From: Fibrobacter sp. | Lineage (GTDB): Bacteria > Fibrobacterota > Fibrobacteria > Fibrobacterales > Fibrobacteraceae | Reading direction: 5' to 3' | NCBI GenBank assembly: GCA_024398965.1 | Contig: JAKSIF010000007.1 | Location: forward strand, 62,001-126,000 | DNA length: 64,000 nucleotides | Shown here: in pieces, positions 10,605-13,334 of the stretch | Layout of the letters: each line of letters starts with the position of its first letter | Position numbering within the stretch: position 1 is the first letter of the stretch | The notes under the pieces: model-generated | Told to the model about the DNA's origin: nothing | Databases searched by the model: none | The model's input: only the letters and a program-made list of their open reading frames with translations | Made by a program: the position numbers and the translations under genes

Positions 10605-11324
10605 TTACAGCGCAGGGTCCTTGGCGTTGTTGGCAGCAAAGGCTGCTGCGCGATCGATGCAGGTTCCGCAAGTTCCGCAGGGCTTGTCTCCACCTTCATA
10701 ACAACTCCAGGTCAGTTCCAGAGGAGCCTTGAGGTTTAAACCTTCCCTTACCACATCGGCCTTGGTCATACCCGCGAAGGGTGCGAAGACCTTGACTTGG
10801 TTGTAGGTTCCGATGGAAATGGCCTTGCTGATGGTTTCCACAAATTCGGAACTGCAGTCGGCGTAGGCATTGCCGGCGGCATCGTCCCCGTGGGCACCAA
10901 GATAGAGCGTTACGTCGTCGTTTTCAAAAATGCTTTGGGCAAGGCTAGCGCAGGCGCTGAGCATCAGTCCGTTTCTGAAAGGAACGTAAGTGGATACCTT
11001 GCCGTTTGCGGCAGCGGAATTAGCCGGTGCCGTGGCAGCCTGTTCTGAAATTTGCTCCGCGTAGCTCTTGTGACTGATTTCCTGGGAGGAATTTGCCAGC
11101 AGGGAACAGTTGGAATACTGAAGAATAGTGGAAATGTCCAGCTCGTAATGGGGCAAGTTGTAGAAGTCTGCAACGGCCTTGGCGCTATCCAATTCCTTGC
11201 GATGTTTTTGCCCATAGAAAATGGATGTGGTGACCACGTTTTCGGCGCCAAACTTGGCTACAGCCATGGCGACACAGACGGTGGAATCCACACCGCCCGA
11301 TGAAAGAACGATTGCTTTTTTCAT
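10605..11324 (-). CDS. queC: 7-cyano-7-deazaguanine synthase
   Basis: The 239-residue protein has the PP-loop ATP pyrophosphatase motif SSGGVDSTVCVA at its N-terminus and the zinc-binding cysteines SCYEGGDKPCGTCGTC near its C-terminus. QueC converts 7-carboxy-7-deazaguanine plus ammonia and ATP to preQ0, the substrate of QueF. The gene follows queF by 41 bases on the same strand, and a CCAGGC/GCCTGG hairpin lies in that gap. The start is taken as ATG 11324; a TTG four codons upstream is possible. Confidence 0.95.
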   Translation of the reverse strand: MKKAIVLSSGGVDSTVCVAMAVAKFGAENVVTTSIFYGQKHRKELDSAKAVADFYNLPHYELDISTILQYSNCSLLANSSQEISHKSYAEQISEQAATAPANSAAANGKVSTYVPFRNGLMLSACASLAQSIFENDDVTLYLGAHGDDAAGNAYADCSSEFVETISKAISIGTYNQVKVFAPFAGMTKADVVREGLNLKAPLELTWSCYEGGDKPCGTCGTCIDRAAAFAANNAKDPAL

Positions 11325-11365
11325 GATAATGTCCAAGGTTCCAGGCGTGAGGCCTGGGCTGCTGT

Positions 11366-11890
11366 TTACTTCCAGGAGTTACGACGGTCAACGCTTGCGA
11401 ACAGGCGGTCTGTAGCCTTCTGTTCATAAACAGTACCCGGCTTGCCGTAGTTAGCGAAGGGGTAGATGGAAATGCCACCGCGGGGGGTGAAGATACCTTC
11501 CACTTCGATGTACTTGGGATCAAGAAGCTTAATCAGATCCTTCATGATGATGTTGGCACAATCCTCATGAAAGTCCCCGTGATTACGGAAACTGAACAGG
11601 TAAAGCTTTAGGGACTTGGATTCCACAATGTACTGGTCTGGAACGTAATTGATGCGGATTTCTGCAAAGTCCGGCTGACCAGTCTTGGGACAGAGGGACG
11701 TAAATTCAGGGCAGTTCAGCATGACCATGTAGTCGTTATCCGGATGCTTGTTTGGAAATTTCTCCAACACGTCCGGGTCGTAGTCGTACTTGTATTTGGT
11801 GTTCTGGTTACCGAGGAGTGTAACTCCTTCCAGTTCTTCGCTAGACCTGCCTGAATGCTGGTCAAAATAATCCGAAAAGATTTCGGCCAT
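11366..11890 (-). CDS. queF: NADPH-dependent 7-cyano-7-deazaguanine reductase (preQ1 synthase)
   Basis: The 174-residue protein is a short, type I QueF. The nucleophilic cysteine lies in [13 protein letters not shown], the NADPH-binding motif is [20 protein letters not shown], and the C-terminal [15 protein letters not shown] is typical. It reduces the nitrile preQ0 to the amine preQ1, which is then exchanged into tRNA for queuosine. It is the first gene of the pair queF-queC. AGGAG sits six bases before the ATG, and that site is predicted to be masked by a preQ1-I riboswitch (11897-11939). Confidence 0.95.
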
Positions 11891-11896
11891 AATGTG

Positions 11897-11939
11897 CTCC
11901 TAGTTTTGTTTTAAGACAGGCGGAATTTCGAACTGTCTT
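11897..11939 (-). promoter_or_regulatory. Candidate preQ1-I riboswitch controlling queF translation
   Basis: On the minus strand a stem AAGACAG/CTGTCTT (arms 11933-11939 and 11913-11919) closes a 13-base loop that begins UUC and ends in C. It is followed by the A-rich tail AAAACAAAACTAGGAG. Loop bases UCC (11922-11924) can pair with GGA of the Shine-Dalgarno site (11898-11900), giving the H-type pseudoknot of class I preQ1 riboswitches. The tail resembles that of the Thermoanaerobacter tengcongensis aptamer. The loop is slightly long and P1 is 7 bp, so the call is provisional. Confidence 0.55.
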
Positions 11940-12014
11940 CTCTTGCGATTATCCATAATATAGAAAAGTTTTTTGGATAGTAAGAGTCGGGACTGGGTTT
12001 GCTATATTTTGGAC

Positions 12015-13334
12015 ATGCAAAACGCTGGTATGGAATATCTTAATTCCCGACTGATGTTCGGGATGGTGCCCGGTCTGGAATCAACCAGAAAGCTCTGTGA
12101 AGCCATGGGAAATCCTCAGAAGAAATTCAAGACCATTCATGTGGTGGGAACCAACGGAAAGGGCTCCACCAGTTTTTATCTGGCCGGAGTGCTGCAAGCA
12201 CACGGTTTCAAGACAGGCTTGTTTACCAGCCCCCACCTTGTAAGCCTGCGTGAAAGGATCCGCGTAAATGACTTGCCTATCGGTGAAGAAGATTTGGATC
12301 GTCTTCTTTTGAAAGTGAAGGCTGCTGCAGACGCTATTAATTCTTGCGCTGGGGCAGGGGAGGCCATCGAGCCTACGTTCTTTGAGGTCCTTACGTTGGT
12401 TGGATTCCTATACTATGCGGAACAGAATCTTGATGTTGCTGTTCTTGAAGCGGGCATGGGAGGCCGACTTGATAGTACGGCGGTTGCCGAAGGTGAACTG
12501 ACGGTTCTTACCAGCATTGGCTTGGAACATACAGAAGTGCTGGGCGCAACTGAAAGCGCCATCCTGAAGGAAAAGATGGCTGTTGGCGGCAAGACCTATG
12601 TTGTTGGCGGGCTGTCACAGGAACTTCTGGAAGAGGCAAGGCTGTTCGCCGCTTCCCGTGGGGCGGAGTACGTCGTGCCGTCGATTCGTGATGATATTTC
12701 TCTGCCAAACTTGGGACAGCATTATGTAGAAAATGCAAGTTTGTCTCTTGCTGCCGCAAAGTTGTTCTGCGAAAAAGTTGCCGGGCGAAATGCTGCCAAA
12801 TCGGGCTGTGATGGCATCGCTTATGACGACGCTCTGGCCGTCCGTATCCTAGGGAAACGCTCCTGGGCTGGCCGCATGCAGACCCTGGCCAACCGCGAAG
12901 GCCGTGTGGATTACATTTTGGATGGAGCCCACAATTCTCACGCGGTTCGCCGTCTTGTCCAGGCTTTGGATCGCTACTATCCGGGTGTCAAGTTCCATTG
13001 CGTCTTCGGCGCCCTCAAGGACAAGGATGTGGACGAAATGCTTAAGCTGATGGCGCCTCATGTAAGTCATTGGCACATCACAAAGACTCCTTACCCGCGG
13101 TTTCGGGAACTGGATGACTTACGCTCCCAGCTGGCGGCCTTGAACTTGCCGGTAGCAACCGAGGGCCTGCTCAGTCGCGAATTCTTGGACCGTGTCCGCG
13201 CAGCATCAGAACTCCCCGTATTGATTACGGGAAGCCTTTACATGATTGGCGAAAGTGTGCAGGCCTTGAAGAAGGATTACGAGGGCCTTGCATTTTTCCG
13301 CGGGCTAGACCAAACAACAAACGAACATCGCTAA
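12015..13334 (+). CDS. folC: Folylpolyglutamate synthase/dihydrofolate synthase
   Basis: The 439-residue protein has the Mur-ligase-like FolC pattern: MEYLNSRLMFGMVPGLEST at the N-terminus, the P-loop HVVGTNGKGSTSFYLAGVL, FTSPHLVSLRERIRVN, and in the C-terminal domain YILDGAHNSHAVRRL. It adds glutamate to dihydropteroate and extends folate polyglutamate tails in the cytosol. ATG 12015 fits the family N-terminus; an earlier TTG at 11973 would add 14 residues unlike FolC. TATATT ends six bases before this ATG, so the message may be leaderless. The residue composition and length are normal for the family. Confidence 0.93.
   Translation: MQNAGMEYLNSRLMFGMVPGLESTRKLCEAMGNPQKKFKTIHVVGTNGKGSTSFYLAGVLQAHGFKTGLFTSPHLVSLRERIRVNDLPIGEEDLDRLLLKVKAAADAINSCAGAGEAIEPTFFEVLTLVGFLYYAEQNLDVAVLEAGMGGRLDSTAVAEGELTVLTSIGLEHTEVLGATESAILKEKMAVGGKTYVVGGLSQELLEEARLFAASRGAEYVVPSIRDDISLPNLGQHYVENASLSLAAAKLFCEKVAGRNAAKSGCDGIAYDDALAVRILGKRSWAGRMQTLANREGRVDYILDGAHNSHAVRRLVQALDRYYPGVKFHCVFGALKDKDVDEMLKLMAPHVSHWHITKTPYPRFRELDDLRSQLAALNLPVATEGLLSREFLDRVRAASELPVLITGSLYMIGESVQALKKDYEGLAFFRGLDQTTNEHR

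Follow-up and report, generated by a model that had tools for sequence, protein, structure and literature searches.

The original three-type classification of preQ1 riboswitches is said to go back to McCown in 2014. In type I, as the structural parts of PMC8752633 and PMC11625349 describe it, the bases U6, U7, C17, A30 and C31 bind a stack of two preQ1 molecules, U16 contacts the second of them, and C8-A12-U32 forms the roof of the pocket. The part of PMC11625349 that deals with type I gives the dinucleotide UC as always present. In type III, according to the portion of PMC10622847 on the linker between P1 and the poly-A strand, this linker varies, and shortening it raises affinity.

The window, a 64-kb stretch of Fibrobacter DNA, contains a related 43-base element at 11897-11939 on the minus strand, which consists of AAGACAG, UUCGAAAUUCCGC, CUGUCUU, AAAACAAAAC, UA and GGAG and ends 6 bases 5' of the queF start codon (11890-11888, minus strand). 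A preliminary description of the locus had placed a 7-bp stem, a 13-base loop, an A-rich tail and a Shine-Dalgarno site here, and all are present. All parts are on the minus strand. The P1 5' strand AAGACAG (11933-11939), which includes the family core GACAG, makes 7 bp with the 3' strand CUGUCUU (11913-11919), and both strands are defined by sequence and covariation. The 13-base loop UUCGAAAUUCCGC (11920-11932) comprises L1, the 5' part of P2 and the specificity C. It starts with UUCG (11929-11932), or U6, U7, C8 and G9 in the Carnobacterium (Can) type I numbering; these four bases are invariant in our alignments A1, A2, A5 and A8, and their roles are covered in the structural parts of PMC8752633 and PMC11625349. 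The loop also includes a CC (11922-11923), the proposed anti-Shine-Dalgarno partner of GG at 11899-11900, and the dinucleotide GC directly 5' of the P1 3' strand (11920-11921), in which C is the specificity base and G, as comparison of 225 elements indicates, stands in place of the usual U (U16). The A-rich L3 strand AAAACAAAAC (11903-11912) is conserved in A1 and ends with a conserved C (C31); after P1 the A-rich strand reads AAAACAAAACUA in the window and is conserved in A1, A5 and A8. The Shine-Dalgarno sequence GGAG (11897-11900) lies within the conserved element.

Both the CUA of the tail (11901-11903) and the UU that follows the P1 5' strand (11931-11932) are found in the window element, and every pocket and roof base of type I is retained (U6, U7, C8, A12, C17, A30, C31 and U32) except U16. 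Judged by its sequence, the element is class I and type I-like (CUA tail, U6/U7/C8), with G replacing U16; we file it as type I-like, and not as type I, because it has GC instead of UC. This substitution was absent from the preliminary description.

The first gene downstream, queF (11366-11890, minus strand), codes for a 174-residue NADPH-dependent preQ0 reductase, or preQ1 synthase (TIGR03139, 173.1 bits at a cut-off of 86.9). It is followed by queC (10605-11336, minus strand), which encodes 7-cyano-7-deazaguanine (preQ0) synthase (TIGR00364, 156.2 bits at a cut-off of 150.3) and is presumably co-transcribed with queF. The leader is very probably a preQ1 riboswitch of class I that acts on translation as an OFF switch; the class, the gene and the translational layout proposed in the preliminary description are supported. 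By analogy with the described systems, we infer that the element binds preQ1, forms P2 and represses queF and queC. When preQ1 is scarce, only the P1 hairpin would form, the tail ACUAGGAG would be open to the ribosome, and QueF and QueC would be made. When preQ1 is plentiful, it would pair with the C 5' of the P1 3' strand, and the tail would fold onto the loop to form P2, in which an A-U step lies at the ceiling of the pocket and CC pairs with the Shine-Dalgarno GG; the A-rich strand would settle in the groove of P1, and the Shine-Dalgarno sequence would be hidden. Since the latter sits in the strand taken up by P2, preQ1 should lower the translation of both queF and queC.

Control of transcription would instead rely on a terminator-like hairpin just inside queF (11872-11886, minus strand), which matches a terminator pattern with six pairs. 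Against this, 0.4 such matches are expected by chance, the hairpin is inside the coding region, and the Shine-Dalgarno site is overlapped by the element, so that we reject attenuation as very improbable here; it is the relatives from Clostridia that have terminator-like sequences downstream, as read by eye.

Rfam reported nothing in the 64-kb window at gathering cut-offs, as expected from the earlier suggestion that standard models might miss this variant. With the cut-off relaxed, RF00522 (PreQ1) was the best of 4227 families over positions 11700-12100, with a score of 16.6 bits (E 0.7), and no further preQ1 family was found there among matches to E 10. In two relatives searched in the same relaxed manner RF00522 was the sole listed match (24.3 bits in L001 and 19.8 bits in L074), and a hairpin-inserted relative, L030, had no Rfam match at E <= 1. 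At gathering, RF00522 was reported in 0 of 36 loci with subgroup elements (16 + 20), and a Neisseria queF leader (L109), included as a control in that search, passed at 50.6 bits. The gathering threshold of RF00522, 39 bits, is the curators' cut-off, and the whole sampled subgroup lies below it; because this common form is missed, annotations based on Rfam undercount the class.

Three covariance models were built from our own alignments: R1 from 16 Fibrobacter queF leaders (A1), R2 from A5, used for the order-, genus- and family-wide searches, and R3 from 16 non-Fibrobacter elements (A8). In a search of the whole 64 kb, R3 matches 11897-11940 at 49.8 bits (E 6.9e-12), with a runner-up of only 9.2 bits (E 1.1). 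R3 is not fully independent of the genus, because its sequences were originally found through matches to the Fibrobacter-trained R1 or R2.

Taken by itself, the P1 stem is unremarkable, with a folding z-score of -1.06 and 32 of 200 shuffles folding equally well. The compensatory changes sought in the preliminary description are present in related leaders: within A1, where 99.0% of the P1 cells are paired, one stem pair alternates between A-U and U-A; 21 mixed sequences have both-side changes at 4 of 6 P1 pairs; and 70 distinct wider relatives (alignment A9) have them at 5 of 6 pairs, in 94 cells. The P1 covariation score of A9 was reached by 0 of 500 shuffles; its members are a hand-chosen 73 of the R2 matches from the Treponema genus and the Acetatifactor family, fitted to the model, which favours pairing. 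Overall, 98-99% of P1 cells are paired, and the closing G-C is found in all. The R3 match and the covariation of P1 relative to shuffles lead us to reject a chance hairpin. The specificity C stands just 5' of the P1 3' strand in 225 of 225 elements, window included, as counted by a script that set this strand by the closing C and best pairing.

For the pseudoknot the support is modest. The pairing proposed initially, UCC of the loop with GGA of the Shine-Dalgarno site, holds in its CC:GG part, which is conserved and, on the sequences compared, plausible, but the base 5' of CC varies (A, C, U or G). CC:GG is without covariation support because loop CC and tail GG hardly vary: of the 60 loop/tail combinations parsed, 59 have GG in the tail, in a parse that required CC in the loop and left out L206, L326 and L334. 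Among the same 60 distinct combinations, the pocket-ceiling pair 12-32 is A-U in 49, G-C in 4 and has other letters in 7; this numbering is mechanical and unsafe for longer loops. As for the proportions of the hairpin, at first thought unusual, the family-wide stem is 5-6 bp, and loops of 12-14 bases are ordinary here.

Within the genus, QueF (PF14489) is found in 53 of 80 genomes, in 52 of them over the cut-off, and aptamer and tail precede queF in 51 of the 53 loci. The two exceptions are L041, with the tail only, and L053, a below-cut-off QueF match with neither aptamer nor tail. The queF leader of L041 retains GCCUAUAAACCAAAACUAGGAG, with P1 and the loop gone, and may be a decayed or misassembled switch. 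At another locus (L052 in genome G010) the queF match is split (86766-86891 and 86944-87078); the gene is possibly frameshifted, and the switch is intact. R1 matches occur in 54 of the 80 genus genomes and, across the phylum, in 58 of 167 genomes, confined to 2 of 40 genera; these and the other large-set searches (genus, phylum, order, Treponema and Acetatifactor) were run under stricter filters. A site is present in 52 of 52 queF-positive genomes of the genus and in 2 of the 28 others (G023 and G061; Fisher p 4.9e-19), an association that supports specificity and does not amount to discovery, because R1 was trained on queF leaders.

A pattern search of 107 loci extracted 104 Fibrobacter sites, 51 before queF, 39 before queC and 14 before queD, so that 104 of 104 precede one of these three genes. 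Repeat queF loci (L054-L063 and L068) and loci with no pattern match (L041, L053 and L180, the last of them matched by the model) were left out before counting, and the extraction required five P1 pairs, which makes its pair table conditioned on pairing. The sites represent 53 distinct elements, with loops of 12-14 bases and with 5-8 bases between GG and AUG. Just 5' of P1, Fibrobacter leaders L001-L052 have a recurring TTTTCTATCTTTG-like motif that looks by eye like a promoter element, and transcripts may begin almost at P1.

The genome of the window has a second copy (G000:C3:90671-90716, minus strand), located before queD (TIGR03367, 94.8 bits), which is followed by queE (TIGR03963, 246.4 bits, slightly below the cut-off of 260.1). 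One copy thus lies at the head of queF-queC and the other at the head of queD-queE. These genes bear on the identity of the ligand. Were it preQ0 or another 7-deazaguanine, one could point to the fact that preQ0 is made by QueC and consumed by QueF, and that type III strongly prefers preQ1 over preQ0 and type II does not, as stated in the portion of PMC10622847 on ligand preference; the pocket bases, however, match those of the preQ1-binding type I, and the element also stands before genes for de novo steps, from queD through queF. We consider a ligand other than preQ1 improbable.

Of 225 elements, 220 have UC 5' of the P1 3' strand, 4 have GC and 1, a weak match, has AC. All four GC carriers are Fibrobacter queF leaders (L003, L007, L022 and L008, the last being that of the window), and UC stands in the queD copy of the genome to which the window belongs. 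On the queF tree the four are scattered, requiring 4 changes, at least 3 of them forced. The queF leaders L003 and L009 are identical at 60 of 60 upstream bases, yet their aptamer loops differ as a block, which suggests local exchange of the loop. Given the scatter and this identity, more than one origin or transfer of the GC loop is probable.

It is possible, although we lean against it, that the G standing for U16 disrupts or remodels the second (beta) preQ1 site; the window copy would then, like types II and III, bind one preQ1 and the queD copy two. In the structures as reported in parts of PMC8752633 and PMC11625349, the O4 atom of U16 contacts the beta-preQ1, and types II and III have a purine 5' of the C; the rarity of GC (4 of 225), set beside the UC of the queD copy in the same genome, fits as well. 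On the other hand, G also has a keto oxygen, the C8, C31 and U32 of type I are retained, and the assignment to U16 is uncertain because the window loop has an extra base.

Among the best 80 of 595 GTDB queF loci, 22 matched R1 at E <= 0.01; four of these are Fibrobacter records, and the others belong to Treponema, Victivallales, various Clostridia and Acholeplasmataceae. Several Clostridia have the element before a membrane protein upstream of queF, which we take, from its motif, to resemble QueT. For the order to which a Victivallales locus belongs, R2 matches were present in 10 of 47 genomes; for the genus of one Treponema locus the count was 79 of 146, and for the family of one Acetatifactor locus it was 163 of 250. 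In three Treponema-group loci (L217, L221 and L245, each at 1501-1544) the R2 element precedes an uncharacterised membrane protein (...DRQDWKMLLRSLPAVVVALF...) whose gene is no obvious queuosine gene, and in L218 and L219 (1501-1544) the element, with its Shine-Dalgarno sequence, lies directly before a radical-SAM-like protein (...GCSWKKCAFCDYHLDFST...) that might function in queuosine salvage.

Of the 51 Fibrobacter queF leaders, 22 (representing 18 distinct sequences) have a hairpin inserted between P1 and the A-rich strand, against 0 of 39 queC and 0 of 14 queD leaders; the window's own copy is without it. The four basal pairs of the insert form in 18 of 18 sequences, with one both-side change, at the fourth pair, and its folding averages 2.7 standard deviations below shuffles, although not everywhere (L046, z 0.09). 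In Victivallales an unrelated hairpin occupies this position, and its second pair is A-U, G-C or G-U (8 distinct strings). Isolated examples are found in Acetatifactor (L107/L204), L293, L294, L333 and Candidatus Treponema equifaecale (L101). The insertion is independent in Fibrobacter, Victivallales, Treponema and the relatives of Acetatifactor; on the queF tree its presence requires 6 changes, at least 4 of them forced. Because the type III linker varies and gives higher affinity when shorter, at least in the systems treated in that portion of PMC10622847, the insert is probably a tolerated elaboration. A consensus fold of the hairpin-inserted relatives proposes an alternative hairpin, CCUA with the Shine-Dalgarno UAGG. 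When the 18 distinct sequences are folded one by one, 16 prefer the insert helix (probability at least 0.78), and only the L038 set (L038, L042 and L049) and L048 prefer the CCUA:UAGG hairpin; we therefore do not offer the latter as a general mechanism.

The insertions also bear on whether the element could be an operator in the DNA, bound by a protein that represses queuosine genes, and not an RNA sensor, as might be argued from P1, which is palindromic in DNA as well and changes symmetrically. Such an operator would have to accommodate a spacer that varies between 12 and 14 bases, asymmetrically conserved loop and tail, inserted hairpins that add as many as about 90 bases beside the stem (L101) and the likeness to RF00522 (at the three scores given above), and it would include a Shine-Dalgarno sequence at a fixed distance from AUG. 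These features lead us to reject the operator, which is scarcely credible, and to retain the riboswitch.

Literature searches on preQ1 riboswitches in Fibrobacter found no report for this lineage, and the phyla of Fibrobacter, rumen Treponema and Victivallales, to which preQ1-I control is here extended, are missing from the type I list of the 2024 review; the published type I set of 1577 sequences may already include the subgroup. The mechanism is known, and what is new is the variant and the breadth of an unlisted subgroup. Copies with G for U16 are a natural experiment on the number of ligands per pocket in one of the smallest riboswitch folds, and the repeated hairpin insert is another, on how much extra structure the P1-L3 linker tolerates. 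Speculatively, and with doubts on our part that outweigh the attraction of the idea, the locus would be a naturally occurring class I switch whose beta-ligand position holds G, accompanied in the genome by a conventional UC copy at queD-queE, so that one-ligand and two-ligand switches with different response curves would act in one cell on two halves of the pathway, and in relatives the class I pocket would have repeatedly gained a hairpin and so become a class I pseudoknot of three stems, laid out like class II.

Of the known systems, class I type I, in the Carnobacterium antarcticus structure (PMC8752633) and the consensus (PMC11625349) so far as the relevant parts of these sources show them, shares with the window element the closing G-C of P1, UUC at the start of the loop, C 5' of the P1 3' strand, the A-rich L3, a tail of CUA followed by the Shine-Dalgarno sequence, and queuosine genes downstream; it differs in UC where the window has GC, in the window's 13-base loop, and in C10, which would pair with the Shine-Dalgarno G34 and is A in the window. 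RF00522 aligns with our elements end to end, over 45 model positions, but at 16.6-24.3 bits, below its gathering threshold. The E. coli class I type III switch, as presented in part of PMC10622847, likewise draws the Shine-Dalgarno sequence into P2 and has a variable linker from P1 to poly-A, whereas the window has the CUA tail of type I; type III is characterized in the corresponding part of PMC11625349 by a pyrimidine-rich stem-loop and AC 5' of the P1 3' strand. Finally, class II is a three-stemmed pseudoknot (by the accounts in parts of PMC11625349 and PMC11262651), and the hairpin-inserted relatives from Fibrobacter and Victivallales share its layout of a hairpin, an inserted hairpin and a pseudoknot strand with the Shine-Dalgarno sequence, but combine this layout with a class I pocket sequence, and the copy in the window has the class I pocket without the inserted hairpin.
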